This document shows positions 30,171 to 62,107 of a stretch of 64,000 nucleotides of DNA, in pieces. Every line of letters begins with the position of its first letter. Positions within the stretch are counted from its first letter, which is position 1. The DNA is taken from NCBI RefSeq assembly GCF_003097495.1, contig NZ_QEOP01000001.1:124001-188000 (forward strand), given 5' to 3'. The position numbers were made by a program, and so were the translations under genes. Source of the stretch: Amnibacterium flavum. GTDB taxonomy: Bacteria; Actinomycetota; Actinomycetes; Actinomycetales; Microbacteriaceae. The notes under the pieces are model-generated. The model worked only from the letters and a program-made list of their open reading frames with translations. It was not told where the DNA came from and searched no databases.

Positions 30171-31937
30171 TCAGCGCTTCGCCAGAACCAAGGCAGCATT
30201 CGTCGGTACGGAGATGTCGGCCGTCGCAGCCCTGCCGTCACCGGCCTGATAGGTGCCGAACCCCCAGCAGGCGACACGTCCGTCGTTGAGTTGCGCACAG
30301 CCACCGTAGGGCTTGGTTTGAAGGGCCACGACGTTTCCATCGGCCAGTAGCCCTCCCACCATGGTCGGACTGGCGTAAGCTCCACCCGACTTGCCAGTGG
30401 CCAGCTCGACTACGTTCTGCGTGCCCCAGCAGAAGACACGTCCCTCATCCAGCAGGCACAGCCCCGAGAGGGTGGACGTCAAGGTCTCGAAGTGATCGTG
30501 GCCGGGAATACGCATCGGCGTCGGGCGAGATGTCGAAATCGGCTTGCCTGCAGCGTCGATCCCTCCCCCCGCTTCGCCCCAGCAGTACCGAGTGCCGCTC
30601 GCTCCGACGGCGCACAGTGTGGTCGCTCCATCCCCGTCCTCCAGCCTGACGAGCTTGTCGCCCTCAGGAACGAGGCTGAGATCAGCGGGCACGGGGGCGG
30701 AATAAGCCTTGCCGACTGTTCCGTCGCCGAGAAGGCCTCGCCGAGCCACATCGTCTCCCCAGCAATAGATGGACGATTCTCGAGTCAGGGCGCATATGCC
30801 TCCGGCACCGACCTCGACCTGCGTCACCTCGCGCGTCGCGAGATCGCCAGCGATGAGCCGCGGCGTCATCACGAACGTCTCGCCCGGGGTATACGGCCCG
30901 GCGAGCAGGTTCACGTTGTATCCCCAGCACCACACACGACCGGCAGCGTCAACGGCGCATTTCTTGTCCCCGTTGACGGACACATCAGCGACTCGCCCCA
31001 GATTCGCGGGCTTGCGCAACACCCCGTCCTTGGTGGTCTTGGTGGATGACCCGTCGCTGTACCCCACGCAGAACAGCTCCTGCTGCGTCGAGAGTATGCA
31101 GGTATCCGAAGGAGAGGTGGCCACTCGCGCAGGAACGACGCCCGCGGGAACGGCCAGCGTCTGCGGCGTGGGCTGCGATTGCTTCGCGGAGAAGCCTTCC
31201 GTGAACGTGCCGTCGCCCATACGTCCCCACGACGTAGATCCCCAGCACTTGACCGTATCGCTGGAATCGATGAGGCAGCTGCCGTGATCGCCCGCGCCAA
31301 GGTAGCTGGGTTGGAAGGATTCGACCGCTGACGGAAGCCTCGTGGGAGCACCGTTCTGAATGGCGTTGATGACGACATCGAAAGTCGCCTGGGCTCCCTG
31401 GAACTCGTTGCCGGAGTCGACGGAGAGCCAGACGCGGATCTCCACACGGGTCGTCCCACCGGCGGCGAGACCGCTCCCGGCGGTCTGGTAGGCGCCCGAT
31501 GTCGCGGCGATCGGCAGCGAGCCGAGGGTCTGCACCTGCCCGAGAGCGATGCCCTGCTCGCTGAAGAGCTGGAATCGGAAGTTCGCAAGCTTCTCGGCGG
31601 CGAGAGGCGCCTGTGCCTTCGGGTTCACGACCGAGAGGGTCCAGTCGAGGGGGAGACTGCCCGTGTTGCGGACATTGATCCACTCGGATCGTGCGCCACC
31701 CCCCGCCTGGCCGTCAGTCATGGGGTAGACCCCCGAGACGGCGACGGTGGTCTGGGCTGATGCACCTATCTCCCCGATGCTGAGCGTCGCGCCTGTGATC
31801 GAAGCGCGCGCGGAAGAGCTCGCGGTGAACCAGGCCCCGGAAGCGACTGTCCCAAAGCCGACCACGCCGAGAATCAGTGCCACGGCGCCAAGCGCCGCAA
31901 CTCCTGCGCGGGCTCCGCGCCTCGTCGTTCTTTCCAT
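30171..31937 (-). CDS. SipW-exported TasA-like/RCC1 protein, one 7-bladed propeller (no FN3 frame)
   Basis: Predicted surface protein of 588 residues. A basic N-terminus and hydrophobic stretch (about 12-33) end in the SipW-type motif SGAWFTA (34-38 = GAWFT). Residues 40-200 form a TasA/camelysin-like beta domain (LSIGEIG, YPMTDGQ, EWINVRNTGSLPLDW, the FQGAQATFDVVINAIQNG end). Seven RCC1 blades follow, each with a closing C-[WV]-G and a second cysteine 8-10 residues earlier. Unlike its paralogues it stops after the last blade and has no fibronectin return segment. ATG at 31937 has GGGGGGAACTGAC before it. It is monocistronic, with the TTCG-N5-CGAA site 137 bases upstream. Ligand unknown. Confidence 0.85.
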   Translation of the reverse strand: MERTTRRGARAGVAALGAVALILGVVGFGTVASGAWFTASSSARASITGATLSIGEIGASAQTTVAVSGVYPMTDGQAGGGARSEWINVRNTGSLPLDWTLSVVNPKAQAPLAAEKLANFRFQLFSEQGIALGQVQTLGSLPIAATSGAYQTAGSGLAAGGTTRVEIRVWLSVDSGNEFQGAQATFDVVINAIQNGAPTRLPSAVESFQPSYLGAGDHGSCLIDSSDTVKCWGSTSWGRMGDGTFTEGFSAKQSQPTPQTLAVPAGVVPARVATSPSDTCILSTQQELFCVGYSDGSSTKTTKDGVLRKPANLGRVADVSVNGDKKCAVDAAGRVWCWGYNVNLLAGPYTPGETFVMTPRLIAGDLATREVTQVEVGAGGICALTRESSIYCWGDDVARRGLLGDGTVGKAYSAPVPADLSLVPEGDKLVRLEDGDGATTLCAVGASGTRYCWGEAGGGIDAAGKPISTSRPTPMRIPGHDHFETLTSTLSGLCLLDEGRVFCWGTQNVVELATGKSGGAYASPTMVGGLLADGNVVALQTKPYGGCAQLNDGRVACWGFGTYQAGDGRAATADISVPTNAALVLAKR

Positions 31938-32025
31938 GTCAGTTCCCCCCGAGGTGACCTACGCCCCGCACTCGAAACCACTGAAATCGAATTAATGTGG
32001 TCCCGCGCGATATTCATGCAAAGAA

Positions 32026-32086
32026 ATTTTCCCATCCGTAGTCCGGCGGGCAAAATCTGCGCCTATCCGGATATTCGCCGGGCGAA
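32026..32086 (-). promoter_or_regulatory. Candidate promoter with TTCG-N5-CGAA operator (RCC1 gene at 30171-31937)
   Basis: The palindrome core is TTCGCCGGGCGAA (32074-32086), extended to ATTCGCCGGGCGAAT. Exactly 42 bases downstream on the minus strand is a -10-like GAAAAT (32031-32026). A TTTGCC at 17-base spacing is the -35 position. The gap is otherwise AT-rich for this genome. I see no good terminator for the gene ending at 32262 in this 324-base region. Confidence 0.55.
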
Positions 32087-32261
32087 TGCTGCTCTCCGAC
32101 GCCGCGAAGGCGACTTGGACTTATTCGCGACAGCGGAGCACCCGCGAACGGAGTCTCCATTCATGCGCTGTCAGCTCGTCGGCCAGCGCTCCCGCGATGA
32201 GGATGGGCGCGGCGCGAGCGTGGTTGCGCCTCCGAGACACTCAGCTCGCCGAGGCCTGCCC

Positions 32262-33950
32262 TCAGCTGCGTGCGGCGGTGATCGACGGGCTCACCCACGC
32301 GCTCCCGTAGTTGGGGATCTTGTAGGAGACGCGATACGAGTACTTGACCGAAGGGTCGAGGGAGCAGCCGGAGCTCGTCACGACCGCCTGCCCGGCACAG
32401 CCGGGTCCGAATGCGAGGAGGGGGGTGGGCGTCAGACTCGCCCTGTCAGTTACGGCGTACCCGTACATCTGTCCTTTGCCCCAACAGGCGATCGTCCCGG
32501 CATTGCTGACGGCGCAGCTGTCGGTGCCATCGACCATGAGACCGCGCAACGGCGCCGAGCCGATCAGGCCAGCCGAGTCGTCAACGGTTCCGATGGAAAG
32601 CTCCCGCCATCCCTGCCCCTGCCATCCGGTCCAGATCCCTCCGCTCGACCGGGGATACCGGGTAGTGGTGGCCGTGCCGACCAGCGCAGCCGTCCCCCAG
32701 CAGACGATCTGCGCGGATCGCGCCGCACAGGCGGTCGCGCTGCCGCCGCCCGAGACGGCGACGCGGGTGAAGTCGCCCCCGACCGGGATCTTCTGGGCCT
32801 GCGAATCCGACGGGAACTTGGATCCCGTGTCCGTCATCGAACTGAACCAGCAGGTCACCTCGCGGGCTGCGCCGACGATGGCGCAGAACGCCCCCTGGCC
32901 AGCAGCGATGCTCTGGACGCCCGTGATGGCTGCACCGTTGGCGTACATCATGGCGAACGGGGCGGGACGCGATTTGAGGGTTTGGTAGTAGGCGGCCTGC
33001 GCGCCCCAGCAGTAGACCCCGGCCGGCGTCACGGCGCAGGTGAGGTCGTTCGATGCCGCGATGGCGGTCGGCTGGTTCTGATAGAAGACTCGCGGAGCAG
33101 CCGGGTCCGTCGCCGATCGCGAGAGAACGATCGGCGTCGTGCTCTGCGTGGTCGAACCGGGTCCGAGCTGACCGTAGTAGCCGTACCCCCAGCACCAGAT
33201 CATCGACGCGTTGTCCAGAACGCACACGTGCGCTTTTCCGACCGCGATGTCGGCGACGCCCTGTCGCGCGAATGCACCCGTGGGGTCGACCACCTTGGCC
33301 GCGGTGAGCGGGCGGCTCGTCTTGGTTCCGTCGCCCAGCTGCCCGTAGCTGTTGTCCCCGCCGCAGTAGACGGCTGTCGCGGTCATACCGCAGTAGAAAT
33401 TGGACCCGGCGGAAAGTTTTGTCACGCCTGCCGGAAATCCGGACACCTCTGTCGGGCCGCCGGGGGCGGCTGCTCCGAACCGGTAGAAACGTCCCCCGAC
33501 CCTCACGACCCGTGTCGCGTCGACGCCGTTGCTCTCACTGATGAGATCGGCATTTCCGACGAGGCGGGACCAGACGTTCGCGGTGCTGCCCGTTGCACTG
33601 TCGACGAAGGTGCGATTCGGCCCCTGATAGATGGTCGTGGCGTCCCGGAAGTCCCCCGACGCCGAGCGTTCGACGGTGTATTGCGGTACCGCGTCGGCGG
33701 GCCATCCCGTCAGGTCGGGAGACGACCAGGAGAGCTCGGTGGACTGTCCGCCGGAGGCGCCTTTCGCGGCGATCGCGACGGCGGGCAGCGAGGCAGCAGC
33801 AGCGGTATTGGCTGAGGTCGAACCGCTGGCCGTGAAGTAGGCGCCCGTCGAAGGTATGGTCAGCGCGCCGAGCATCGCCAGCCCCGCCGCCGCGATGGCG
33901 ACGGCGCGATATGGCCACCGGATGGCGCGAAAACGCTTTCGAATCCGCAT
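32262..33950 (-). CDS. SipW-exported FN3-split RCC1 protein, one 7-bladed propeller
   Basis: 562 residues. The signal region ends PSTGAYFTA (GAYFT 36-40). There is no TasA-like domain: residues about 65-120 are the first half of a fibronectin-III-like fold (TELSWSSPDLTGW, YTVERSASGDF, YQGPNRTFVDS). Blades 1-7 follow, blade 1 (VVRVGGRFYRFG) without cysteines, the rest with C...C[W/G]G pairs. One blade reads CWFSS in place of CWG. The chain then returns to the fibronectin fold with C-x10-C-SL and KYSYRVSYKIPNYGSAWVSP. Strong GGGGGGAT ribosome site before the ATG. Monocistronic, with operator 122 bases upstream. Confidence 0.85.
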   Translation of the reverse strand: MRIRKRFRAIRWPYRAVAIAAAGLAMLGALTIPSTGAYFTASGSTSANTAAAASLPAVAIAAKGASGGQSTELSWSSPDLTGWPADAVPQYTVERSASGDFRDATTIYQGPNRTFVDSATGSTANVWSRLVGNADLISESNGVDATRVVRVGGRFYRFGAAAPGGPTEVSGFPAGVTKLSAGSNFYCGMTATAVYCGGDNSYGQLGDGTKTSRPLTAAKVVDPTGAFARQGVADIAVGKAHVCVLDNASMIWCWGYGYYGQLGPGSTTQSTTPIVLSRSATDPAAPRVFYQNQPTAIAASNDLTCAVTPAGVYCWGAQAAYYQTLKSRPAPFAMMYANGAAITGVQSIAAGQGAFCAIVGAAREVTCWFSSMTDTGSKFPSDSQAQKIPVGGDFTRVAVSGGGSATACAARSAQIVCWGTAALVGTATTTRYPRSSGGIWTGWQGQGWRELSIGTVDDSAGLIGSAPLRGLMVDGTDSCAVSNAGTIACWGKGQMYGYAVTDRASLTPTPLLAFGPGCAGQAVVTSSGCSLDPSVKYSYRVSYKIPNYGSAWVSPSITAARS

Positions 33951-34274: not shown

Positions 34275-36449
34275 TCAGCTTCGGGTTGCGCGGACGAACG
34301 GACTCGTCCAACCCGAAACCCCTGCGACCGTGTAGCTGACGCGGTAGTAGTACGCACCGTCCGTGCGCAGCGAGCACCTGTTCGCGTCGATCTTGTTGGC
34401 AGTGCCGCAGGTCGTTGCGGTGTTGACGGTGCTGACCGTCTTGTCGCCGGCGACCCTCACCGCGGTGCCCGACTTGTTGTAGTCGGCAACTCCCCACTGA
34501 TTCGATCCCCAGCAGCTAACCGATCCGGCCGAGGTGAGCACGCAGGTGTCCCTGTTCTGGGCGACGAGCTGCGTCACCGACTGCGTGGCCAGGATTCCGC
34601 TCGTCAGCTTGGTCGGCGTGTTCTTGGTCTGGGCGCTCCCGAAGCCGAGCTCGCCCGACACGTCGGTCCCCCAGCAGTAGACGTTTCCCTCTTGGAGGGC
34701 GCACAGGCCCGATGCGGTGACGGCGATCTGCGAGATGTTGGTCAACGAGCCGGTGTCCACCTTCGTGGGCTTGCCGCCGAAGTCCTTCCAGCTGCCGAGC
34801 TTGCCCCAGCAGTACACGTTGCTCGCACCGGTCAGCGCACAGACGACGTTCTGTCCCCCCACGATGGATGAGATGCCCTGACCGGTCATCATGCTCGTGT
34901 CGACGAGGACGGGCGTTGTCGTTCCCTTCAGGTCGTACTCGGCCGGCAGTGTCGTCCGGACGCGCGGGTTCGTGACGGTTCCCGCACCGCCGTTGCCCAG
35001 CGAGCCGTTCAGGTTGGTGCCCCAGCAGGAGATGGTGTTGTCGGTTGCGGAGGCACAGGTCACCGAGACGGCCGAGGTGATGTGGCGAACGGTGCGCGTC
35101 GCGAGGGAACCGGTGCTCATATTGATCGGCACACCCTGATCGGAGAAGGAACCGATCGCTCCGTAGTGGGGGTGCCCCCAGCAGCCGACCTTTCCGCGGT
35201 TCGTCACGAAGCAGGTCCCGCCGTAAAGGTAGTTCTGCGTCAGTTCCGCCGCCGAGTCGTTCGAAAGCGGCGACGTGCGAGTCACCGACACCGGCCAAGG
35301 CTCGGTCGAAAGATTGCCGTTGCCCGAATACCCGCCGCGGCAGTGGATGCCGCCGTCGAGCACGATGCTGCACGCGTCGCCCCAATCGTCGACGGACGGC
35401 GTGCCCACGGCGTAGGTGTTGGCCAGAGTTCCCGTGAGGCGAACGGGCGCGGTCGGGCCCATCGACTGGTACCACACGCCAGGACCCCGTTCCACTCCGT
35501 TCGCCTTTCCCCAGCAGGAGACGCTGCTGTCGGCGAGACGCGCACAGGCCGTCGAGCCGCCCAGGGCGATCGACCGCGCCTCTGAGCCCATCAACACATT
35601 GCCGGGCTGTCCGTCGGGAAGCACGGGGGCTCCGTCGACGTCGTCCGATGCAGTGGTGCCGATTCCGGAGTAGACGACCGAGGATCCTGCGAAATCGGGG
35701 TTATCCGCCCGTTCGACGGTATAGGTCGGGGCGCCGGATATCCCCGAAGAGGCGAGGGCGGAGGACACGTCGGTCCACGACAGCGCGGTCGACGCACCCG
35801 CAGGCTGGCCGCTCTTGACCGCCGTGAGCGACTGCGCGATCGACGGGAATCCGCCGGCGCCGTTCTGGATGCCGTTGATGACGACGTTGAACGCGGCTCG
35901 GGCACCCTGGAACTCGTTCTGCGACTCGGCCGAGAGCCAGACGCGCAGCTCGACCTTCGTCTGTCCTCCGGCGGCGAGGGCGCTCCCCCGAGTCTGGAAG
36001 CCTGCCGGCATCACGGTGGCAGGCATGGCCCCGAGCGTGAGCGGAGCGGTGAGGGCGGTGCCGGCCTCGTCGTAGAGACGGAAGCGGAAGTTCGCGAGCT
36101 GAGCGGCGGTCAGCGGTGCTGTCGCCTGGGGGTTGACGATCGACATCGTCCAGTCCAGCGGAATGGTGCCGGTATTGCGCACCGTCACCCACTCCGACCG
36201 TGCTGACACGGCCGCTTGATCGTCGGTCATCGGGTACACATCGGCCACCGCGACCGTCTTCTGATCGCTGGTCTTGCCGATCTCGCCGATGGTCAGCAGC
36301 GCGCCGGTCACGCTCGCGGACGCCGACTTGGTGGCGGTGAACCACGCGCCCGAGGCGACGGTGCCGACACCGGCGATACCGGCGATGAGCGCCAGCGCTC
36401 CGATGATCGAGATCGCCCGGCGCGTGCGCCCGGCTGCGGTCTTCTGCAT
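34275..36449 (-). CDS. SipW-exported TasA-like + FN3-split RCC1 protein, one 7-bladed propeller
   Basis: 724 residues in four parts. (1) Signal with SGAWFTA (GAWFT 34-38). (2) TasA-like domain, about 40-200, with YPMTDDQAAVSARSEWVTVR and the NEFQGARAAFNVVINGIQNG end. (3) First half of a fibronectin-III fold (TALSWTDVSSA, YTVERADNPDF). (4) Seven RCC1 blades, all with paired cysteines (for example TCASATDNTISCWGTNLNGS), then C-x8-C-SL and the fibronectin return YYYRVSYTVAGVSGWTSP. AGGGGAC ribosome site. It stands alone between its own operator (36617) and hairpin (34219). It probably displays the propeller outside the cell. Confidence 0.87.
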   Translation of the reverse strand: MQKTAAGRTRRAISIIGALALIAGIAGVGTVASGAWFTATKSASASVTGALLTIGEIGKTSDQKTVAVADVYPMTDDQAAVSARSEWVTVRNTGTIPLDWTMSIVNPQATAPLTAAQLANFRFRLYDEAGTALTAPLTLGAMPATVMPAGFQTRGSALAAGGQTKVELRVWLSAESQNEFQGARAAFNVVINGIQNGAGGFPSIAQSLTAVKSGQPAGASTALSWTDVSSALASSGISGAPTYTVERADNPDFAGSSVVYSGIGTTASDDVDGAPVLPDGQPGNVLMGSEARSIALGGSTACARLADSSVSCWGKANGVERGPGVWYQSMGPTAPVRLTGTLANTYAVGTPSVDDWGDACSIVLDGGIHCRGGYSGNGNLSTEPWPVSVTRTSPLSNDSAAELTQNYLYGGTCFVTNRGKVGCWGHPHYGAIGSFSDQGVPINMSTGSLATRTVRHITSAVSVTCASATDNTISCWGTNLNGSLGNGGAGTVTNPRVRTTLPAEYDLKGTTTPVLVDTSMMTGQGISSIVGGQNVVCALTGASNVYCWGKLGSWKDFGGKPTKVDTGSLTNISQIAVTASGLCALQEGNVYCWGTDVSGELGFGSAQTKNTPTKLTSGILATQSVTQLVAQNRDTCVLTSAGSVSCWGSNQWGVADYNKSGTAVRVAGDKTVSTVNTATTCGTANKIDANRCSLRTDGAYYYRVSYTVAGVSGWTSPFVRATRS

Positions 36450-36737: not shown

Positions 36738-38963
36738 TTACCGGCGGACGGCGGTGACCGTCTCGCTGGACCAGTCGGCGACGTCGGGCGTGGTGTAGCC
36801 CACCCGGTAGCTGTAGGCGACCTTGGGAGAGAGACCGCACGTGCTGTCGCTCAGCTTGGGCGCACCCGCCGCGCAGACCAGCGAGGTGCTCTGTCCGTCG
36901 AGGTTCGTGCCGGCGAGCTTGACCTGGACGGGGACGTTCGTCGTGCCCGCGCCGTTCACCTTGCCCTGACCATCGGTGCCGGTGTCGTCGTTGCCCATCT
37001 GGAACTGGTGCGACAGGCCCCAGCAGGCGACCGCGCCCGCAGCGTTGATCGCACAGGTGTGCGTCCAACCGGCGGCGACATCGGTGTAGGACGAGCCGTC
37101 CAGCGCCTTGTTCGTGTCGGTGATGGCGGCGGGCTTGTAGTTCGCGTCGTTGGTGTTTCCGCGGCCCAGCTGTCCTGCCCAGTCGTTGCCCCAGCAGTAG
37201 ACGGCCGACGCCTTGCCTGCGCAGGCGACGCTCGTGCCGAGCTCGAGGAAGTCGAATCCGGTCGCCGAGGTGGTGATCCGCGCCGGCGTGCTGGAGCTGT
37301 TCGTGCCGCCGTCGCCGAGCAGGCTGCGGTCGTTCAGACCCCAGCAGACCACGTTGGCAGCCGTCGTGGCGTTGGTGATCACGCAGGCGGTACCCGATGC
37401 GGTCGAGATCTGCGATGCGCCCACGAGCAGTCCGGCGGTGTCCTTCACGAGCACCGGGGTCGCCGAATCGGTCGACATCGCGGCGCCGAGCTGGCCCGAA
37501 CCGGCCTCGCCCCAGCACGCTGCGGACTTACCCGCAGCGGCGCTCGTCGGAGCGAGCACGCAGGCGAAGGAGCCGCCCGCCGAGATCTTCGCCGGAGTCG
37601 CGCCGAGCACGGCCGCGGGAGTCGAGCTGCCCGTACCGTTCACGACGACGGGCACGTTCGACGTGCTTCCCGCGGTGGAGGAGCCGAGCTGCTTGTGCGC
37701 GTTGTCACCCCAGCAGCCGACGGTCCCGTCCGAGGCGAGAGCGCAGGTGAAGTACTCCCCCGCGTCGACCTGGACGATGCGCTTGCCGGTGAAGACGCCG
37801 TTCGTGTCGGTCACGGCGACCGCGCCGTTCAGCGCGTCGTTCGTCGAGCCGTTTCCGAGCTGTCCCCGGCCGTTGAAGCCGGCGCAGTAGACCTGCCCTG
37901 TCTCGATGACGGCGCAGAAGTGATCGCGGCCGGCGGACATCTGGGTGACGGCACCCGGGAAGCCGGTGATCTCCTGCGCCTTGCCCGTCTGCAGCCAGTA
38001 GTTGCCCGCGGAGCGGAGGTCGGCCTTGTAGATGGAGCCCCAGGCGTAGACCTTGCCGCCGATGAGCGCGAAGGTGGCGTCCTGACGCGATGTCGCGGTG
38101 ATCTGCGACGCGTCGCGGTTCCCGGTCGGAGTGCCGGTGCCGACCGTGTCGTCCTTCGTGAGCAGCGGGCCGGTGTAGACGGTCGTCGCGTCGGAGAAGT
38201 CGCCGGTCGCGGAGCGCTGCACGGTGTAGGTCGGTGCGCTGGCGAATCCTCGGGCGGAGAGCTGCGCTCCGGCGTCGGACCACTCGATCCTGGTCGAGGC
38301 TCCCGAGGGGGTGCCGGTGCTGACGGGCGTGACCGTCAGAGCGCTGAGTCCGACGGGGAGGTTGACGGGCTGGGGCGCCTCCCCCTGCATGGCGTTGATG
38401 ACGATGTCGAAGGTCGACTTCGCGCCCTGGAACGCGTCGCCAGATTCGGGCGTGAGCCAGGCGCGGATGCCGATGCGCTGCGAGGCGCCTGCGGCGAGAC
38501 CCGTTCCCCAGAAGAGGTGGTCGCCCGCGACGGCGGTGGGGCCGAACGAGTCGAGGGTGCGGATGCCGGAGACCGGCTGGCCGGCCTCGTTGTAGAGCTG
38601 GACCTTGAAACCGGACAGCTGCGCCGCGGTGAGCGGGGCGACGGCCTTGGGGCCCGCAACCGAGATCGTCCAGTTGAGCGAGATCGTTCCGGTGTTGCGA
38701 ACCGTGACCCACTGCGACGGGGCCATCGTGGGCGCCTGAGCATCGGTCATGGGGAAGACGTCGGCGACGGTGATGGAGGTCTCATCGGACGCGCCGATGT
38801 TCCCGATCGAGAGCGTCGCGCCGGTGATGGTCGCGGTGGTGCTCGTCTTCGCCGTGAACCAGGCACCGGATGCGACGGTGCCGAATCCTGCCAGGCCGAC
38901 GATCAGCGCTGCCGCGCCGAGTACGGCGGCCCCGCGCTTCGTCGTGCGTGCGGACCAGGTCAT
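36738..38963 (-). CDS. SipW-exported TasA-like + FN3-split RCC1 protein, one 7-bladed propeller
   Basis: 741 residues. The frame is open to 39209, but MTWSARTTKRG at 38963 has GGGGGAGAGAAACTC before it and places GAWFT at 33-37, as in the paralogues; the longer form would run into the operator. TasA-like domain about 40-210 (LSIGNIGASDE, FPMTDAQAPTMAPSQWVTVR). The fibronectin first half ends at YTGPLLTKDDTVGTG. Blade 1 (FALIGGKVYAWGS) is cysteine-free; blades 2-7 have C...C[W/A]G. The return segment C-x9-C-GL then AYSYRVGYTTPDVADWSSE closes the fold. Confidence 0.87.
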   Translation of the reverse strand: MTWSARTTKRGAAVLGAAALIVGLAGFGTVASGAWFTAKTSTTATITGATLSIGNIGASDETSITVADVFPMTDAQAPTMAPSQWVTVRNTGTISLNWTISVAGPKAVAPLTAAQLSGFKVQLYNEAGQPVSGIRTLDSFGPTAVAGDHLFWGTGLAAGASQRIGIRAWLTPESGDAFQGAKSTFDIVINAMQGEAPQPVNLPVGLSALTVTPVSTGTPSGASTRIEWSDAGAQLSARGFASAPTYTVQRSATGDFSDATTVYTGPLLTKDDTVGTGTPTGNRDASQITATSRQDATFALIGGKVYAWGSIYKADLRSAGNYWLQTGKAQEITGFPGAVTQMSAGRDHFCAVIETGQVYCAGFNGRGQLGNGSTNDALNGAVAVTDTNGVFTGKRIVQVDAGEYFTCALASDGTVGCWGDNAHKQLGSSTAGSTSNVPVVVNGTGSSTPAAVLGATPAKISAGGSFACVLAPTSAAAGKSAACWGEAGSGQLGAAMSTDSATPVLVKDTAGLLVGASQISTASGTACVITNATTAANVVCWGLNDRSLLGDGGTNSSSTPARITTSATGFDFLELGTSVACAGKASAVYCWGNDWAGQLGRGNTNDANYKPAAITDTNKALDGSSYTDVAAGWTHTCAINAAGAVACWGLSHQFQMGNDDTGTDGQGKVNGAGTTNVPVQVKLAGTNLDGQSTSLVCAAGAPKLSDSTCGLSPKVAYSYRVGYTTPDVADWSSETVTAVRR

Positions 38964-51204: not shown

Positions 51205-51242
51205 GGGTACCTCTCGGGTGGCGGAACGGACTTTCCAGCGGA

Positions 51243-53321: not shown

Positions 53322-53753
53322 TCAGGCGAGCTGGGTCACGACCATCGCCGGCCCGTCGGACGGGTAGTCGGCGAGCACGAGCGAGTCGCCGGCGACGAAG
53401 AGCGACGCGCGATCGGCCGTGGCGGCAGGTGCGTCGCGCCGCGCCGACGCGGCGAGGCTGTCGAGCACCTCGCGGACGCGGATCACGTCGCGAGATCCCA
53501 TGCGCAGCAGCGAGTCGGCGGCCTGGGCGGTGAAGGCGAGCCGGCCGCGGCGGTAGGGAAGAACCTCGAAGCCGCCGCCGCGGAGCGTGCGGACGAACCA
53601 GAGTCCCTCGTCGAGCGTCTGCGTGCTCTCGGAGATCCCGAAGGCCCCGACGAACCGGTCGACCAGACGGGCCAGTGCACCGGCGAGCGAGTAGTCGCGG
53701 TCGATGCCGAAGCCGCCGTCGACGGCGCCGGAAAGTGTTGCGGTTGCGGTCAT
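53322..53753 (-). CDS. Unknown cytosolic protein in an operon with a TasA-like gene
   Basis: 143 residues from ATG 53753 (MTATATLSGAV); the frame extends seven residues further but only this start has a usable ribosome site and matches the MTA-type starts nearby. No signal peptide, membrane span or cysteine-rich motif. Notable segments: LARLVDRFVGAFGISESTQT, EVLPYRRGRLAF and a C-terminal VLADYPSDGPAMVVTQLA. I do not recognise the family. Its position directly behind an operator-bearing promoter and before an exported subunit suggests a chaperone or regulator, but nothing in the sequence proves it. Confidence 0.65.
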   Translation of the reverse strand: MTATATLSGAVDGGFGIDRDYSLAGALARLVDRFVGAFGISESTQTLDEGLWFVRTLRGGGFEVLPYRRGRLAFTAQAADSLLRMGSRDVIRVREVLDSLAASARRDAPAATADRASLFVAGDSLVLADYPSDGPAMVVTQLA

Positions 53754-53989: not shown

Positions 53990-56900
53990 TCAGGACCTCG
54001 CGGCGGACGCGGTCGGACTGACCCAGGTATCAGCTCCGGGCAGCGTGTAATTGACCTGATACCAGTACGTGCGCCCCGGGACGAGCGAGCACGTCGTCGA
54101 ACTCGTCTTGAGCGCGCCGTCGAGGCAACTGGTCGACACGCCGCTGATGGGAGGCGACGCAGGGTCGGTCCCCGACCAGACCAGCGACGGATTGGCGAGG
54201 TTGGTGGTGTTGTTGAGGTTCTGCTGCCCGAGCGCCTGGAGGTTGTTCAGGCCCCAGCAGGAGAGCGATCCCGTGGTGGCCAGCATGCACATCGCCCCCC
54301 ACCCGCCCGAGAGCATTCTGGCCGATCCGCCGACCAGCACCGAGTTGGAGTCCACGACCGCGGTCGCGACGACGTATCCCGCCGTGGTGACGCCGTTGCC
54401 GATACCACCGCTGTCGCGCAGGCCCCAGCAGTAGGGACCGGTCGCCGTCGTCGCGCAGACGTTGAGACCGGCGACGGACACGTCCGTCGCGGCCGTCGTG
54501 AATGCCTCGGTGACGGTCTGGGTGGCGCTCGTCGCAGACGACGCGTTGCCCATCTGACCGTCGCCGGCCCTGCCCCAGCAGTAGGTGTACGAGTTCGAGG
54601 CGGCGACCGCGCAGACCGTGGTGCGGCCGGCGTCGAGGGCCGTGACTCCGGCGGCGAAGCGATTGTTCGGGTCGGTGATCTTGATCGCGGTGGCCGAGTT
54701 GGCGAGTGACGTCGCCACTCCCGCGCCGAGCGGATACTCGAAGTTGGAACCCCAGCAGGCGATGTACCTCGTACCGGACGGTCCCGCCTCGACGCAGATG
54801 GTGTCCCACCCCGACGTGATCTTCGTGGCCTTGCTCGCGCTTCCCACAGAGAACAGAGTTGAGACGACGGCGACCGGCGCGTTGCTCGACGCAGGACTGT
54901 TCGCCGGCTGCCCCAACTGCCCGACGTCGTTCTGACCCCAGCAGCCGATCGTCCCGTCGCTCGCGAGGGCGCAGGTGCCCATGTCCCACGCGGTGATGTC
55001 GATGAGGGTCTTGCCGGTGAACACTCCGGCGGAGTCGTTCACGAGCGTCGCAGCACTGCTCGTGCCCGCCGTGGTGTTGCCGAGTTTGCCGTTCGCGGAG
55101 TTACCCACGCACCAGATGCTGTTCGTCCCATTGATGGCGCAGGCGTGGTAATAACCGGCGGCCATCTTCGTGACGTTGGCCGGGAAGCCGGTCAGCTCGA
55201 CGGGCACCGCCGAGACGGTGTCGTCCAGCTTGCGGCCCCATGAGTAGTACTTGCCGTCGATGCGGGCGACCTGGTACTCGTTACCGGAGTTGACCGCGAG
55301 GAGGTCTGCGCTGCCGCCGGGGAGAACCCGGGCGCCGTTGAAGATGACAGCGCGCGGAGCTGTCATGTCGCTGGTCGTCGCACCCTGTCCGAGGCCGTAT
55401 CCATCGCCCTCGCCCCAGCACCACAAACCACCCGCGGTGCCGCTCGCGCATGCGGAGTACGGCCCTACCGAGAGGGTATTGATGGAACCGGTCGTCATTC
55501 CGGGCATGGTGGTGAGGTTCCGCGGGGTGAACGGGCCGGTACCGGTCGTGCCGATGCCGAGCTGCCCCGAGGCGTTCATTCCCCAGCAGGTGAAGGCGGC
55601 ATCCTTCGACGCGCAGCCGACGGTGTAGCCGACCGTGACGTCCGAGTATCCGGTCACCATTCCGGACGGCGGGGCGCTGATGGCTCTCGGAGTCGGGTTG
55701 AGCGACGTCCCGCCGTCGCCCAGCATGCCGAGACCTCCACCACCCCAGCACGCCACATTCGCCTGAGTGGTGTCCCCGTTGAGCACGCAGTAGACAGCGT
55801 GGCCTCCGACGATCTTCGTGACACCCTGCAGGACGTTGTTCGGGTCGGCGATGTCGACAGGTGTTCCGTGAGCACTCGAGTCCGCGGTCGTGCCGAGCTG
55901 CTGCCAGTTGTTCCTGCCCCAGCAGGCGAGGCGGTTGTTCTGGCCGGGGTAGGTGGGCTCGAGCTTCGCGTCGTAGGTCGGGCCCTTCGCCGCGCACATT
56001 CCGTAGTTGCTGGCGCCGATGACATTCGGTTTGAACGTCGCGAAGACGCCGGTCCCGATGACGGCGACGGGGGTGAGACGGTTCGTCGTCGTGCCGTCTC
56101 CGAGCTGACCGTAGGTGTTGTCCCCCCAGCAGCCGATCACCCCATCCGACGCCAGCGCACAGGTGAACTTGTCGCCCGCGGTGATGGAGATGATGGTCTT
56201 TCCCGCGAGGGCGCCGTAGCTGATCTCCTTGGCGGTCGTCGGCCCACTGGTGCTGCCGTCGCCGATCTGTCCCGACCCGTTGAAGCCGACGCAGAAGACC
56301 TTGCCGGTGACGGACAGCGCGCACAGGTGGTCGAGGCCCGCCGCCATCTGGCGGATGTCCTCGGTGAAACCGGGGATGGGGGTCAGGATCGGGCTGTTGA
56401 AGTCGGGCCCGGTCACGGTGGTCGCAGTGGCCCAGGTGATCCCGGTCCCGTCCTTCTTGGCGGTTCCCCAGCGGTAGACCTGACCTCCGATGAGCGCGAA
56501 GCTGCCGGTGTTGGCGTCGCCGGTCGACGCCGCGACACGCAGAGTCGCGACCTGGGTGGCCTGTCGCGCACCGACCGGTGCGCCGCCGACCGTGTCGGTG
56601 AGCGACGTCGTCGTCGGCGTCGTGAGTGTGGTGGCGCCGGCGCCCAGGGCGAAGGAGTTCACCGAGTTGCGCTTCGCGATGTAGACCGGGTTGGTGCCGG
56701 TGCTCCCCGTGAGGGTCGGCGCGGTCCAGGAGACGGAGCTCGACTGGCCGCTGACCGTCTGGCCGCTGTTCGTGTCGATGCTCTTGGTCGCGGCCAAGCT
56801 CGTCACCGCTGCGAGCGCGCCCGCCGAGCCGCTCTGCGCTGCGGAGACCGACTGGTTCGTGAAGTAGGCGCCCGTTGAGCCGATCGCGACGACGGTGAGC

Positions 56901-57034
56901 GCGGAGAAGGCGGCGACACTGGCCACGATGTAGCGGCGGCGGCGGGTGCGCGTGCCGACTCGGGCCCGGGAGCCGCGCGCTCCGGTGATTCCAGCCCAGA
57001 GCTGGGTGGCGCGGGTTTCGCGTCGGCCGTTCAT
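53990..57034 (-). CDS. SipW-exported FN3-split RCC1 protein with two 7-bladed propellers
   Basis: 1014 residues from ATG 57034 (GGAGAGAACTCG upstream). Signal motif STGAYFTNQ (55-59). Fibronectin first half SSVSWTAPTLTGS, VYIAKRNSVNSF, TTSLTDTVGG. Fourteen blades follow; blades 1 (FALIGGQVYRWGT) and 8 (VARIDGKYYSWGR) are cysteine-free and open each propeller. The rest carry pairs such as TCALASDGVIGCWGDNTYGQ. Blade 4 of the first propeller has a longer loop in both this protein and 45813-48788. Return: C-x10-C-SL, YWYQVNYTLPGADTWVSPTA. Last gene of module A, 46 bases after the large SipW. Confidence 0.87.
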   Translation of the reverse strand: MNGRRETRATQLWAGITGARGSRARVGTRTRRRRYIVASVAAFSALTVVAIGSTGAYFTNQSVSAAQSGSAGALAAVTSLAATKSIDTNSGQTVSGQSSSVSWTAPTLTGSTGTNPVYIAKRNSVNSFALGAGATTLTTPTTTSLTDTVGGAPVGARQATQVATLRVAASTGDANTGSFALIGGQVYRWGTAKKDGTGITWATATTVTGPDFNSPILTPIPGFTEDIRQMAAGLDHLCALSVTGKVFCVGFNGSGQIGDGSTSGPTTAKEISYGALAGKTIISITAGDKFTCALASDGVIGCWGDNTYGQLGDGTTTNRLTPVAVIGTGVFATFKPNVIGASNYGMCAAKGPTYDAKLEPTYPGQNNRLACWGRNNWQQLGTTADSSAHGTPVDIADPNNVLQGVTKIVGGHAVYCVLNGDTTQANVACWGGGGLGMLGDGGTSLNPTPRAISAPPSGMVTGYSDVTVGYTVGCASKDAAFTCWGMNASGQLGIGTTGTGPFTPRNLTTMPGMTTGSINTLSVGPYSACASGTAGGLWCWGEGDGYGLGQGATTSDMTAPRAVIFNGARVLPGGSADLLAVNSGNEYQVARIDGKYYSWGRKLDDTVSAVPVELTGFPANVTKMAAGYYHACAINGTNSIWCVGNSANGKLGNTTAGTSSAATLVNDSAGVFTGKTLIDITAWDMGTCALASDGTIGCWGQNDVGQLGQPANSPASSNAPVAVVSTLFSVGSASKATKITSGWDTICVEAGPSGTRYIACWGSNFEYPLGAGVATSLANSATAIKITDPNNRFAAGVTALDAGRTTVCAVAASNSYTYCWGRAGDGQMGNASSATSATQTVTEAFTTAATDVSVAGLNVCATTATGPYCWGLRDSGGIGNGVTTAGYVVATAVVDSNSVLVGGSARMLSGGWGAMCMLATTGSLSCWGLNNLQALGQQNLNNTTNLANPSLVWSGTDPASPPISGVSTSCLDGALKTSSTTCSLVPGRTYWYQVNYTLPGADTWVSPTASAARS

Positions 57035-57080: not shown

Positions 57081-58046
57081 TCAGCCACGACGTCCTCTCT
57101 GGGCGCGTCGCCTTCCGCGCTGGGACTGCGCACGGTGCGCGCGGCGGCGCTCCGACATCTCCTCGGAGTCCGTTGCGGCGACTTTCGCCGGACGGGCGGG
57201 TGAGACGCGGCGCGACTCGGTCGCCTCGCGCGCCGCGCGACGGCTGAGGGGCTGAGCCGGCGCCGCGATCGCGGGACTCGGACTCTGTTCGGCGCGATCC
57301 GGTGCGGGCTTCTCCACGATGTCGATGACGACGCGCACCTCCGGGAAGTCGCCGCGGCCGGGCTTGGTCGTGACGGAGTAGGTTCCGCTCAGCCGGCGAT
57401 CCGAGGCGAGGAGAACACGGGCGACCGCGCTGCGCATCGAGTCGACGAGGTCGAGGGTCTCCTGATGACTTCCCTCGTGCTTCTCCGACGCGACGGGCGC
57501 ATCGACCTTCGCAGCCTTCGCCGGGCGTTCCCGGCGGGGCCGTTCGGGCATCTCCTCCTCGGCGCGGCGGGAGGACGGTGCGGGCGCCTGCCCGGCCATC
57601 GGAATGAAGATGAGTCCGAGGATCATCGCGAGCACGCAGAGCCGGAGGGGCCAGCTCTGCAGCTGCATGATGAGCGTCGCCCAGATCCCGGTGAAGTGAT
57701 GGGCGACGACACCCACCACCTTGCCCGGGTCGACCGGGTCCGTATCGTTGAAGTCGTTCGCATCGCCGCGGAGGATGAGCCGACCATCGTCCTCGACGCT
57801 CACGATGCGGTGCGTGTACCGCTCGGAGTCGCCGTCCTTCACGGTCACGACCGTGCCGGCGACGAAGTCGCCCGACTGCGGGGGACGTATGGTGACGACG
57901 TCGCCGATGCCGTAGGTCGGAGCCATGGACAGACCATCGACCTCGACGACCGTGAGGTTCGAGGCGGTCACGATGATCGCGGGCAGCGCGAGCACGGCGA
58001 TCAGCACGCTGAGCAGCACCCAGCGCAGCAGGTTCAGCACTCGCAC
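57081..58046 (-). CDS. SipW-type signal peptidase, large form
   Basis: 321 residues from GTG 58046 (VRVLNLLRW; AAGGACACGACC before it). Ser40 (VDGLSMAPTYGIGD), His79 (RYTHRI), Asp95 (LRGDAN); membrane segments 8-27 and about 134-153. The C-terminal cytoplasmic part has TLDLVDSMRSAVARVLLASD and FPEVRVVIDIVEK, the patch shared with 48931-49911, and ends in an Arg-rich tail. It sits between the TasA-like gene (28-base gap) and the RCC1 gene. Confidence 0.9.
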   Translation of the reverse strand: MRVLNLLRWVLLSVLIAVLALPAIIVTASNLTVVEVDGLSMAPTYGIGDVVTIRPPQSGDFVAGTVVTVKDGDSERYTHRIVSVEDDGRLILRGDANDFNDTDPVDPGKVVGVVAHHFTGIWATLIMQLQSWPLRLCVLAMILGLIFIPMAGQAPAPSSRRAEEEMPERPRRERPAKAAKVDAPVASEKHEGSHQETLDLVDSMRSAVARVLLASDRRLSGTYSVTTKPGRGDFPEVRVVIDIVEKPAPDRAEQSPSPAIAAPAQPLSRRAAREATESRRVSPARPAKVAATDSEEMSERRRAHRAQSQRGRRRAQRGRRG

Positions 58047-58074: not shown

Positions 58075-58884
58075 TCATGAGAACGACGCGTTCGGATCGG
58101 TCATCGAGATGCCGTTCTGGATGACCTTGGCGGTGATGGTGTAGTTGACGCTCGTGCTCTTCATCGAGTTCGGCGTGGTCGAGACGAGGAAGAATCGCAT
58201 CGCGAGATTCGCGCTGGTGCCGGCGGCGAGGGCGGTGCCCGTCGCCGAGACGGGGGTCGCCGCGTTCAACGCGACCGGGGTTCCCCAGGTCGTCCCGCCA
58301 TCCGTCGACAGCGCGACTCGTACGTACTGGGTCAGCGCCGAGACGGGGGTGGTGACCTGGTTGACGGTCAACGACCAGTCCGACGACACCGACCCGTCGT
58401 TCGAGAGCTGAATGGGAACGATGATCCCCTTCGCGGCACTGGTCGTGTCGTTCGCATCGGTCGTGCTGAGGGGGAGGAGTCCCGTCGCCGTCCAGGTCGG
58501 GCTGGGCGCCGAGCCGTTCTTGAGCGAGACCTTGACCGTCGCGGACGTCGAGGTGTTGGAGCCGATGGACGCCTGATTGGTGAAGTAGGCGCCGGTCGCG
58601 AAAACAGCGGTTCCGGTGAGGGTGGCGATGACGGCGATGACCGCGAGCACCCCGCGGGAGATCCCCTTGAGGGCTCGAGCGCGGATCGAGATGCGCGCAC
58701 GTGCCGGACCGGCGGCGGTCGTCACGCGACGCCGCCGGGGTGCGGGCACCTCGTCGACGATGCGGTGCCAGGCCCTGTCGAGCTCGTCGTCCTCGGCCGT
58801 GCGAGGAGCAGTGCTCGGCGCACCCTCGGCCCGCAGCCCCGAAGCGGCCCGGCGGCCTCGATTCGTTGTCATGACCGCACTCAT
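58075..58884 (-). CDS. SipW-dependent TasA-like protein with long cytoplasmic N-region (module A, second subunit)
   Basis: 269 residues. The start MSAVMTTNRG at 58884 overlaps the small-SipW stop (ATGA, 58881-58884), as its counterpart 50668 does. About 75 cytoplasmic residues precede a hydrophobic span (78-96) and FATGAYFTNQ (GAYFT 98-102). The exported domain includes LLPLSTTDANDTTSAAKGII, SSDWSLTVNQVTTP and ANLAMRFFLVSTTPNSMKST, ending IQNGISMTDPNASFS. Confidence 0.83.
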   Translation of the reverse strand: MSAVMTTNRGRRAASGLRAEGAPSTAPRTAEDDELDRAWHRIVDEVPAPRRRRVTTAAGPARARISIRARALKGISRGVLAVIAVIATLTGTAVFATGAYFTNQASIGSNTSTSATVKVSLKNGSAPSPTWTATGLLPLSTTDANDTTSAAKGIIVPIQLSNDGSVSSDWSLTVNQVTTPVSALTQYVRVALSTDGGTTWGTPVALNAATPVSATGTALAAGTSANLAMRFFLVSTTPNSMKSTSVNYTITAKVIQNGISMTDPNASFS

Positions 58885-59414
58885 CGGGCATGCACCTCCG
58901 CAGGAGCGGTGGCGAGCGCGACGGGCTCCCACTCCTCTTGATCTGCATCGTCGGAGCGGCGGCGCAACGGGAGCAGCGCCAGACCGAGGATCGTCACGAG
59001 CACGGAGAGACGCAGCGGCCACAGCTGGAGCTGGACGAGGATCGTTCCCCACGGCGGCGTCAGGATGTTCTGGACGGCGCCGAGGACGTCGTCGGGGTAG
59101 CGGGTCGAGACATCGACCGCAGGATTGGCATCGCCCTTGAGATGGATGCGCCCGTCCGCGTCGATCGAATCGATGCGATGCGTGTAGTACGACTGGTCGT
59201 CGCCGCGTACCGTCACGATCATGCCGGGGTGGAGTCCGTCTCCCGACAGCGGCCCGATGATGACCACGTCGCCGCGCTGGAGCACGGGCGCCATCGATCC
59301 GCCGTCGACGGTCACGACGGTGCGCTGGCCGGCGTAGATGTACCACGCGGGAGCGACGAGCGCGATCGTCAGGATCGTGACGGCGATCCAGCGAGCGGAA
59401 CTGAGGGCGCGAAT
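58881..59414 (-). CDS. SipW-type signal peptidase, small form, probable ATT start
   Basis: 178 residues if translation begins at ATT 59414 (IRALSSARW), preceded by AAGGAAACTCCG at ideal spacing. No ATG, GTG or TTG lies near, and this start puts Ser40 (VDGGSMAPVLQRGD), His79 (YYTHRI) and Asp95 (LKGDAN) exactly where the other four SipW proteins have them. Membrane segments 10-28 and about 134-152. ATT starts are rare (infC is the known example). An upstream GTG in the frame has a poorly spaced ribosome site. Translationally coupled to the next TasA-like gene. Confidence 0.85.
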   Translation of the reverse strand: MRALSSARWIAVTILTIALVAPAWYIYAGQRTVVTVDGGSMAPVLQRGDVVIIGPLSGDGLHPGMIVTVRGDDQSYYTHRIDSIDADGRIHLKGDANPAVDVSTRYPDDVLGAVQNILTPPWGTILVQLQLWPLRLSVLVTILGLALLPLRRRSDDADQEEWEPVALATAPAEVHAR

Positions 59415-59516: not shown

Positions 59517-59521
59517 ACGGA

Positions 59522-60223
59522 TCAGTGGATCTGCTCGGCGTTGGCCTTGAGCGTGTACTGCACCTTGACGTTCTGGTAGTCGTTCGTCGCCGACGTGTCG
59601 AGGTAGAAGCGGACGACCTTCGTCGAGGTCGCGGCAGCCGACAGCGTCGTGCTGGCGATCTCCTTGTTGCCCGCGGTCTGCGAGTCGGCGAGCGTGCGCG
59701 CGGTCTCCCACGTCACGGCCGTCGGGACGCCGTTGCCGTCGAACGCGGTGGGTGTTCCGAACTGGACGTAGATCTTGCTCCCGGCGTCGGTCGCGCTCGG
59801 CGAGCCCGATCCGGTGGTACCCGGCAGCGCGCTTCCGTCGGTCTTGGTGTAGACGAGCGAATCGATGTCACCGGTCCAGGTGAAGTCACCCGTTCCGACG
59901 TTCTTGACCGTGAACACCTTCATGGCGGGCTTGAGGTTGGTCAGGTCCGTCGAGGTGAACGGGGCCAGGTTCGTCAGCGAGAAGGTGGCGAGCGCGGACG
60001 CTGCGGTCTGCCCGTCGAAGAGTCCGAGCTTGATCGAGTTCGTGCTGACGGTGTTGGTCGCCACTGTCTGCTCGTCCGTGAAGTACGCGCTCGAGGTGAC
60101 GACGGCGCCGGCGACACCGGCGGTGACGACGAGAGCGGCGAGGCCGATCCCGAAGGTGCGCTTGCGGCTCTTGGCCGGCTTCTGGGACGAAACGGGGCGA
60201 CGGGTCGCCGCGGTTGCGGTCAT
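59522..60223 (-). CDS. SipW-dependent TasA-like protein (module A, first subunit)
   Basis: 233 residues from ATG 60223 (MTATAATRRP). Hydrophobic span 24-42, TSSAYFTDEQ (SAYFT 45-49). The beta-rich domain has SIKLGLFDGQT, LAPFTSTDLTNLKPAMKVFT, GTGDFTWTGDIDSLVYTKTD and ends VKVQYTLKANAEQIH. It heads module A (59522 down to 53990). The upstream 428 bases hold a dyad at 60379 and the terminators of the next TasA-like gene. Confidence 0.87.
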   Translation of the reverse strand: MTATAATRRPVSSQKPAKSRKRTFGIGLAALVVTAGVAGAVVTSSAYFTDEQTVATNTVSTNSIKLGLFDGQTAASALATFSLTNLAPFTSTDLTNLKPAMKVFTVKNVGTGDFTWTGDIDSLVYTKTDGSALPGTTGSGSPSATDAGSKIYVQFGTPTAFDGNGVPTAVTWETARTLADSQTAGNKEIASTTLSAAATSTKVVRFYLDTSATNDYQNVKVQYTLKANAEQIH

Positions 60224-60378
60224 GGGAGGATCTGCTTTCTGTTGTGCCTGGAGCATGCGACGGACGTCGACGCTTTCGTAGTTCGGGTGTCGGTCGCGCT
60301 ACGAAATGCAGGCCACCCTCGACAGCCAAGTCGCGACCCCACCTCGTGATGGACCGGGCCGCGACTCCTCCCCCGAAC

Positions 60379-60398: not shown

Positions 60399-60569
60399 AG
60401 CTGTCTGGATGCAATTTTCGGGCCGACGCGCGGTTCGGACGGAAGACACGCCGCCGATTTGATCTTTTTCTTTTCGCCGAATTCGCCGCCCGTGAGCCGC
60501 CTGAATATCGCCCCTCGCTATCAGGCCGAATAGAGACGACGCACGGTTCGCGACGCCGCGAAAAAGCCG

Positions 60570-60644: not shown

Positions 60645-60651
60645 AGACGAC

Positions 60652-61356
60652 TCAGTGGATCTGCTCGGCGTTGACCTTGAGCGTGTAGGTCAGTTTCACG
60701 TTCTGGTAGTCGTTCGTCGCCGTGGGGTCCATGTAGAAGCGCACGACCTTCGTGGAGGTCACACCGGCCGCGAGGGTGGTGACCGCGATCTCCTTGTTGG
60801 TCGACACGAGGGCATCCGTCAGCGTGCGAGCGGTCTCCCAGGTGACGGCCGTCGGAACACCGGCCGACAGGGTCGTCGGCGTGCCGAACTGGACGTAGAT
60901 CTTGGCCTGGGCATCGGTCGCACTGGGCGAACCGCCGCCGACGACAGTGGTACTCGGGAGGGCGCTTCCATCGGTCTTGGTCAACGAGAAGGTGTCGATG
61001 TCGCCGGTCCAGGTGAAGTTTCCGGTGCCCACGTTCTTGACGGTGAACACCTTCATCGACGGCTTGAGCGCCGTCAGGTCGGCCGAGCTCGCGGGGGCGA
61101 GGTTCGCGAGCGAGAAGGACGTGAGCGCCGAAGCATCGGTTGCACCGTCGAAGAGGCCGACGGTGATGCTGTTCGTCTGCACCGTGTTCGTGGTGACGGT
61201 CTTCTCGTCGGTGAAGTAGGCGCTCGAGGTGACGACGGCCCCGGCGACACCGGCGGCGACGACGACACCTGCCAGGCCGAGCGCGAGGAAGCGCTGACGC
61301 CTACGGGCCGGGTCCACGCTCTGCGATTCGCGACGGCGGGTGGCGATTGCGGTCAT
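60652..61356 (-). CDS. SipW-dependent TasA-like protein (third SAYFTD-type subunit)
   Basis: 234 residues from ATG 61356 (MTAIATRRRE). TSSAYFTDEK at 43-52; domain SITVGLFDGATDASAL, LAPASSADLTALKPSMKVFT, GTGNFTWTGDIDTFSLTKTD, end VKLTYTLKVNAEQIH. It is closest to the first subunits of modules A and B but has no peptidase gene of its own. It follows 61442-62107 by 85 bases and precedes module A; it is probably processed by a small SipW. Confidence 0.87.
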   Translation of the reverse strand: MTAIATRRRESQSVDPARRRQRFLALGLAGVVVAAGVAGAVVTSSAYFTDEKTVTTNTVQTNSITVGLFDGATDASALTSFSLANLAPASSADLTALKPSMKVFTVKNVGTGNFTWTGDIDTFSLTKTDGSALPSTTVVGGGSPSATDAQAKIYVQFGTPTTLSAGVPTAVTWETARTLTDALVSTNKEIAVTTLAAGVTSTKVVRFYMDPTATNDYQNVKLTYTLKVNAEQIH

Positions 61357-61441
61357 GTTCGTGCTGCTCTCTCTCATGAAGGGTGATGACACGGAACACC
61401 GGTCGTCGGCGTCCCGCGGTCGGAATGTGTCGCGGAACCGA

Positions 61442-62107
61442 TCAGGGGATCTGGGCGGCGCTCGCGACGAGGTTGTAGACGGCGCTCTGGTTCTGCGTGC
61501 TCGCCGGTGCCGACGAGACGAGGCTCCCCTCGAACACGACCCGGATCGTCTGCCCCGCCTCGACCCGGGTCGCGGGCCCGGCAGTCGTCGACGAGAGGAC
61601 GTCGTCGTACATCGCCGCAGGGTTGCACAGAGCGCAGTCACCCACGAGACGAACCCAGGGGGCGAGGTCGCCGGTGTCCTGGGTGACCTGGGTGCGGAAC
61701 GAGATCTCGATCGGGAACGTCGTGATGTTGGTGAGGTCGACTGTCGTCAGCTCCTGCGGGATCGCACCGACGGTGGTCGACGACGTGCTGCTCCCCTGGA
61801 GCAGCGACCACGAGAGCAGCTCGCAGGTCCCGGACGTGGCTTCCGCGGCCTGGGCGCGCTGGCCGGGACTGATGCTCAGGGCCGAGGCGAGGATGAGCGC
61901 CAGCGAGACGCCGACAAGGGTGCGCGAGCGACCGGATCCGGTCCCCTTCCCTGAGCCCCTGCCGCGGCGCCGGATGAGCACGATGGCGAGCAGCAGCACG
62001 CCGAGCGCGATCGCAGCTCCTGCCACGACCACCCATGTCGACACGTCGACACCCGTCGTTCCGAGCCGGACATCGGTCGGTGTCAAAACGCAAGCCGTCG
62101 AATCCAC
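61442..62107 (-). CDS. Membrane protein with N-terminal sorting-signal-like segment, paralogue of 44578-45291
   Basis: 221 residues from GTG 62107 (VDSTACVLTPTD), preceded by AGGGGGCGCC. RLGTTGVDVSTW, a hydrophobic span and IRRRGRG resemble an LPXTG-type sorting signal placed at the N-terminus. A second span ends ISPGQRAQAAEAT, a likely ordinary signal-peptidase site. The outer domain has CELLSWSLLQ, LTTVDLTNITTFPIEISFRT and a CALC pair, matching 44578-45291 in layout. Like that gene it heads a TasA-like group. Function unknown; an anchor or assembly platform for the fibres is possible. Confidence 0.72.
   Translation of the reverse strand: MDSTACVLTPTDVRLGTTGVDVSTWVVVAGAAIALGVLLLAIVLIRRRGRGSGKGTGSGRSRTLVGVSLALILASALSISPGQRAQAAEATSGTCELLSWSLLQGSSTSSTTVGAIPQELTTVDLTNITTFPIEISFRTQVTQDTGDLAPWVRLVGDCALCNPAAMYDDVLSSTTAGPATRVEAGQTIRVVFEGSLVSSAPASTQNQSAVYNLVASAAQIP

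Follow-up and report, generated by a model that had tools for sequence, protein, structure and literature searches.

A locus of the Amnibacterium flavum genome, running from 62.2 to 30.2 kb on the minus strand of the 64,000-nucleotide stretch analyzed here (the window), combined fifteen proteins bearing SipW-type signals with five SipW-type signal peptidases, and on balance it would make and export a TasA-type extracellular surface structure. It comprised 22 locus genes (named below by their first coordinate) and the small conserved gene 53322. Besides the fifteen signal-bearing proteins and the five peptidases, which spanned 30171 to 61.4 kb, two genes (61442 and 44578) encoded proteins with an AxA site; all locus genes shared one direction. 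Signals, peptidases, domain make-up, gene order, conservation, duplication and an empty site were observed. An earlier note on this DNA had the counts and coordinates right: fifteen signals (eight on small TasA-like proteins, seven on RCC1 propeller proteins) and five Ser/His peptidases. The AxA proteins, gene 53322, fusions of TasA-type domains to RCC1 propellers and an upstream two-component pair came in addition to it.

SipW-type signals and signal peptidases

All fifteen substrates displayed a basic N-region, a single hydrophobic span and the motif [GSNH]A[WY]FT, with aromatic residues just past the predicted cut. This motif was found 15 times in the 10,807 residues of the locus and once in 376,460 residues from open reading frames (ORFs) at other loci within the bacterial family, a count far above chance. 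If the cut follows the alanine, aromatic residues would come directly after it in every one of the fifteen proteins. An aromatic residue at P2' suits ordinary signal peptidase I poorly: it impedes LepB, and TasA has Phe at this position (PMC10269814). The curated SipW signal model TIGR04088 (cut-off 19 bits) was passed by none of the twelve signal proteins in the NCBIfam scan (all but 39308, 45813 and 53990); the closest was 60652 with 14.3 bits. Sortase anchoring was ruled out for the fifteen proteins, as no C-terminal sorting signal was seen in them.

The five peptidases all contained DGxSMxP followed by Y[TF]HR, the motif of a Ser/His dyad. A Ser-His dyad instead of Ser-Lys marks enzymes of the endoplasmic reticulum type, such as SipW. 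All exceeded the cut-off (51.85 bits) of TIGR02228, the archaeal-type signal peptidase I model: PEPa (41476..42855, with a long low-complexity tail; 57.9 bits), PEPb1 (57081..58046, with a long basic tail; 56.0 bits), PEPb2 (48931..49911; 64.2 bits, also over the Peptidase_S26 cut-off), PEPc1 (58881..59414; 58.7 bits) and PEPc2 (50665..51204; 59.3 bits). They matched the SipW model NF046067 at E 5e-8 to 7e-10, better than ordinary bacterial signal peptidase I, and stayed far below its Bacillus-specific cut-off of 190 bits. Together with the motif count, the TIGR02228 scores bore out the dedicated SipW-type export locus proposed in the earlier note.

Judged from sequence, the five peptidases fell into three conserved types, of which two were present twice; no fork of the peptidase tree was starred. 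Signals of the form A/WFT (the slash marking the predicted cut) lay mostly beside PEPa and those of the form A/YFT beside PEPb or PEPc (6:1 vs 1:7, Fisher p 0.01, with duplicates that are not independent). For several locus genes, the true start lay inside the longest ORF. Upstream of the 50665 peptidase (about 51205-51456), the frame gave a tandem repeat, VEE(S/P)PVSPPHPV, which is probably repetitive non-coding DNA preceding the true start of that gene.

TasA-like subunits and RCC1 propeller proteins

The eight small proteins were distributed among four types: S1a (60652..61356), S1b (59522..60256) and S1c (51543..52241), all with SSAYFT; S2a (58075..58884, TGAYFT) and S2b (49928..50668, TNAYFT); S3 (43745..44581, THAWFT); and S4 (43051..43668) and S4b (52610..53230), both with TGAWFT and 86% identical to each other. 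They likely belonged to the TasA superfamily. Their profile (A2) aligned over 152 columns (hhalign probability 98.4, E 5e-15) with that of nine ordinary SipW-exported proteins from the same bacterial family (A4), eight of which matched PF12389 (TasA/camelysin) with E values of 0.01 or lower (best 1.8e-7), in agreement with the TasA-type subunits of the earlier note. In the Protein Data Bank, profile A2 matched the AbpX chains 9rhp and 9sj2 at E 7e-4 and 9e-4. With the AlphaFold model of 52610 (pLDDT 67), VIA-align placed TasA first (Z 7.5 / 7.2, root-mean-square deviation 4.1 over 133 residues, 15-17% identity). Direct matches to PF12389 all stayed below the cut-off (best E 0.021 for one member; E 2.2 for 43745 in the genome search). 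TIGR04089 proteins were rejected as direct relatives of the subunits, as their alignment was confined to the signal region.

The identity of the RCC1 propellers was certain. PF13540 exceeded its cut-off in all the scanned RCC1 proteins (all but 53990, whose repeats were read from a motif count). In the AlphaFold model of 34275, the propeller occupied residues 286-669 and matched UVR8 with Z 35.8 over 336 residues; BLIP-II was among its structural neighbours, at Z about 21. RCC1 propeller proteins were indeed the largest substrates, as the earlier note had it. Among the profile searches raised in that note, those for the peptidases (TIGR02228) and for RCC1 (PF13540) gave matches over cut-off, while those for TIGR04088 signals and for direct PF12389 membership gave none.

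Four of the seven RCC1 proteins, all with SGAWFT, had at the N-terminus a domain that by alignment was homologous to the subunits. Three of them (39308..41431, 36738..38963 and 34275..36449) combined this TasA-type domain with a putative split immunoglobulin (Ig)/fibronectin type III (Fn3)-like domain and an RCC1 propeller, while 30171 (30171..31937) lacked the Ig/Fn3-like tail; its N-terminal domain matched subunit 43051 at BLAST E 4e-15. No TasA domain was present in the other three: 32262 (32262..33950, TGAYFT), with a putative split Ig/Fn3-like domain and a propeller; 45813 (45813..48755, SGAYFT), with two propellers and a PF25390 score of 298.7 bits; and 53990 (53990..57034, TGAYFT), with two propellers, 12 C[WVI]G repeats and an orthologue at L026:3786.

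Most RCC1 proteins displayed VERS..DF..VYTG before the propeller and C..CSL.P..YYYRV.YT after it. These recurrent motifs, together with predicted strands, weakly suggested that the propeller interrupts an Ig/Fn3-like domain; when joined, the two halves matched Ig-like domains only weakly (best 4e-5, for a relative) and fn3 at E 0.054. Mature RCC1 proteins contained 14-26 Cys, an even number in every case, and these were paired within blades. Paralogues inside the window were mostly just 24-38% identical. Two more RCC1 genes with SipW signals were located elsewhere in the same genome (G000:C1 about 363.8-366k, L027:5760-8060; G000:C2 about 813.5-816k, L028:5552-8260); one has a TasA-type domain, and neither fetched stretch contained a peptidase.

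The two remaining locus proteins, T1 (61442..62155, start inferred) and its paralogue T2 (44578..45291), both displayed a pair of membrane spans and an AxA site of the ordinary kind. T1 consisted of an xTG-TM-RRR segment (TM, transmembrane span), a second TM with the AxA site and a Cys-bearing domain whose C-terminal half was weakly TasA-like (orthologue at L026:10129). The N-terminal part of T2 resembled an LAxTG-TM sorting segment (NF058583 at E 8.6e-7, below cut-off). A profile of four T proteins aligned with the subunits at 83% probability (E 9e-6). The small conserved protein X (53322..53753), without a signal and without a match in Pfam or NCBIfam, is possibly regulatory.

Conservation, duplication and wider distribution

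Downstream of the locus lay rpsJ, rplC and rplD of the S10 ribosomal operon. Among nine genomes of the genus, the same locus next to rpsJ was found in only two, that of the window and that of a second species (G005), where the order was T1-S1-PEPc-S2-PEPb-RCC1(double)-X-T2-S3-S4-PEPa-RCC1-RCC1-RCC1. Compared with it, the window contained a second S1-PEPc-S2-PEPb-RCC1 cassette, another S1, a second S4 and two further RCC1 genes. As read from these sequences, a core of about 14 genes was kept in the second species and enlarged in the window by tandem duplication of a cassette. The same gene order and place in G005 indicated that two of the five peptidases stem from this duplication. One-to-one orthologues in G005 were found for the RCC1 proteins 39308 (50% identity), 45813 (49%) and 34275 (41%), and for X (52.6%, same place).

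A histidine kinase-like gene (62474..63979, minus strand) was located directly upstream of the locus, with a response regulator gene behind it, just beyond the window (G000:C1 about 188.7-189.9k). Both were 65-66% identical to counterparts in G005, where the kinase gene (66%) held the same place. In a third species of the genus (G008), a distant pair (kinase 28%) immediately preceded rpsJ, leaving an empty site where the locus would be. The kinase had no match elsewhere in the genus, and G003 and G004 had neither kinase nor locus there. The comparison of locus conservation suggested in the earlier note thus yielded the same order in one species, an empty site in another, and a TasA-RCC1 fusion with strong matches in just two of 300 genomes of the family, both of this genus. 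No other strong match to the fusion was obtained among 396 genomes of the phylum.

The separate components were more widespread. TIGR02228 was over cut-off in 122 of 200 family genomes, and RCC1 repeats occurred in 53 of 300. RCC1 proteins with SipW-like junctions, often adjoining a SipW-type peptidase, were found in other genera (G129, G027, G011, G032, G061 and G087), including a three-gene unit with a TasA-like subunit in G129. Six of about 51 RCC1 loci in other genera, collected through RCC1 or A1 searches, had a SipW-type peptidase within about 8 kb (L093, L094, L130, L133, L158 and L167); in L130, the RCC1 signals themselves looked ordinary. About 0.35-0.7 such loci were expected by chance (Poisson P between about 1e-6 and 1e-4), assuming 1.5-3 peptidases per genome, an estimate based on the 122/200 count. 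Outside the family, a SipW-type peptidase of HGW-Actinobacteria-5 adjoined an RCC1 protein of 15 repeats whose junction read LASYTD.

Other kinds of attachment were also encountered. Among other Micrococcales, Cys-paired RCC1 propellers were fused to N-termini resembling type IV pilins by eye in a plasmid of Glaciihabitans sp. INWT7 and in G218, and tandem RCC1 proteins of bee bifidobacteria are anchored by LPxTG (PMC4449606). RCC1 propellers thus appear to have been combined with surface anchors or filament parts of several kinds, and such repeated joining to differing partners favours a display role.

Several individual loci were recorded along the way. The pilin-like propeller fusions were located at L202:8236-10194 (Glaciihabitans sp. 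INWT7 plasmid NZ_CP043654.1) and L159:6718-8952. At L203:5530-7257 (Pseudarthrobacter chlorophenolicus pACHL01), an RCC1 gene lay in a cluster with genes for a type II secretion system (T2SS)-type ATPase, an F protein and a prepilin peptidase. At L169:411-1745 (HGW-Actinobacteria-5), a SipW-type peptidase was fused to an extracellular domain with a sorting-like end, LAYTG-TM-RRR, next to an RCC1 gene. The genome of the window harbored a separate small SipW-type unit (L197:5787-7946, G000:C2 about 737k), whose substrate was over the PF12389 cut-off. Plasmid or viral origin of the locus was rejected: PEPa had no plasmid match and profile A1 no match in viral contigs. A search of genome contigs with profile A1 returned no relatives.

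Proposed fibre assembly, rival explanations and known systems

The locus would best be explained by fibres that form through donor-strand exchange and use the propellers as binding heads. In TasA fibres, the residues that directly follow the signal take part in donor-strand exchange (PMC9674648), and AbpX fibres, of the archaeal bundling pilus, are also donor-strand exchanged (PMC11952670). By this model, Sec would export all fifteen proteins and the five membrane-bound Ser/His peptidases would remove their signals. As in TasA, from which cleavage, polymerisation, display and binding are extrapolated, each freed N-terminus would serve as donor strand, and a polymer of the Cys-free subunits S1-S4 would form. 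Those four RCC1 proteins that have a TasA domain would enter the same filament, each such subunit bearing a propeller, while the other three would be placed at fibre ends or attach in some other way. Ligands would be bound by the disulphide-braced propellers as heads; capping or anchoring of the fibre may fall to T1 and T2, and its control to the upstream two-component system. A more specific version, a Gram-positive donor-strand-exchange pilus with built-in RCC1 heads, is tentative: each peptidase would be matched to its own subunit class (PEPa to the neighbouring A/WFT substrates, PEPb and PEPc to the A/YFT ones), and the choice of peptidase would set the order of assembly.

Several results weighed against a TasA-type structure. 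No Pfam or NCBIfam model was passed by the subunits, which ruled them out as members of a named family. The TasA match at Z 7.5 was barely above those of unrelated beta-sandwiches, within the range of common arrangements, and with Foldseek alone TasA was not among the top rows for the subunit model. The AlphaFold models were of middling confidence (pLDDT 67 for 52610, 59 for 34275). In addition, the early mature parts of 45813 and 53990 resembled those of the subunits no better than shuffles did, and that of 32262 only weakly; at the level of sequence, donor-strand attachment of these three RCC1-only proteins was unsupported, and they were rejected as TapA-like donor-strand caps.

SipW might instead be an export route only, the RCC1 proteins being secreted or membrane-near binders (BLIP-II-like inhibitors or receptors, for example) and the TasA-type domains folding or anchoring them without forming polymers. 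In favour of this account, three of the seven RCC1 proteins lack a TasA domain, BLIP-II is structurally close (Z about 21), and at the loci L133, L158 and L167 of other genera SipW-like RCC1 junctions lay beside a SipW-type peptidase and no TasA-like neighbour was recognised. It is nevertheless rather improbable, since eight free TasA-type subunits are encoded in the same locus, their classes are conserved between two species, and TasA and AbpX, known members of the superfamily, form fibres.

Less likely still, the array could be mainly a diversity store, in which paralogous surface propellers diverge under phage, predator or host pressure and recombination switches the exposed one. Duplication of a whole cassette, the near-identical S4 pair (86%) and the unequal RCC1 copy number of the two species would agree with this, and the RCC1 proteins of bee bifidobacteria have become varied through duplication, with diversifying selection acting on them (PMC4449606). 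Yet paralogues as distant as those of the window (mostly 24-38% identity), three of which (39308, 45813 and 34275) retained clear one-to-one orthologues in G005, would fit fixed roles. That the small proteins are camelysin-type metallopeptidases, as the Pfam name of PF12389 (Camelysin metallo-endopeptidase), matched by their relatives, would imply, is highly improbable, since the mature subunits lack both Cys and the HExxH motif and have no more than one His, making a zinc site unlikely, and their closest solved fold appears to be that of TasA, a fibre protein.

The nearest described systems were tapA-sipW-tasA, archaeal AbpX and sortase-anchored RCC1 arrays. The tapA-sipW-tasA operon of Bacillus subtilis and TasA/CalY of Bacillus cereus share with the locus a dedicated Ser/His SipW peptidase beside its substrates, aromatic residues after the cut and, probably, TasA-type beta-sandwich subunits. 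Where tapA-sipW-tasA has a single peptidase, the locus encoded five, belonging to three conserved types, along with eight subunits that fall into four types and seven RCC1 proteins, four of them fused to a TasA-type domain; no counterpart of TapA or CapP was identified, though no direct comparison with TapA was made, and T1, T2 and the RCC1-only proteins are candidates. The AbpA/AbpX bundling pili resemble it through the profile match and donor-strand exchange of AbpX (PMC11952670), but are archaeal, whereas this actinobacterial locus has propeller fusions and peptidase arrays. In actinobacterial SipW loci with TIGR04089/TIGR04088 proteins, a SipW-type peptidase also adjoins small proteins with alternate signals; the neighbourhoods read mostly held one to three substrates, and TIGR04089 aligns just near the signal. 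The bee-gut bifidobacterial proteins (PMC4449606) likewise form tandem arrays of secreted RCC1 propellers on an actinobacterial surface, but they use sortase anchoring and Flg_new repeats instead of SipW-type signals and TasA-type domains.

The earlier note regarded the locus as an undescribed surface-fibre or adhesion system. A literature search returned no paper joining SipW with RCC1, nor SipW with Microbacteriaceae, but simpler SipW-RCC1 units do exist in other genera, and the fibre or adhesion function is suggested by analogy.

The known TasA-type fibres come from bacilli and archaea; for actinobacteria, SipW loci were encountered only in the form of curated models of protein families. 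With its fused propellers, a locus of this kind would bring tip or side adhesins into the class of TasA-type fibres, and would suggest an extracellular role for Cys-braced RCC1 propellers. Its five peptidases and fifteen substrates form a natural set for asking how SipW-type enzymes choose their targets.

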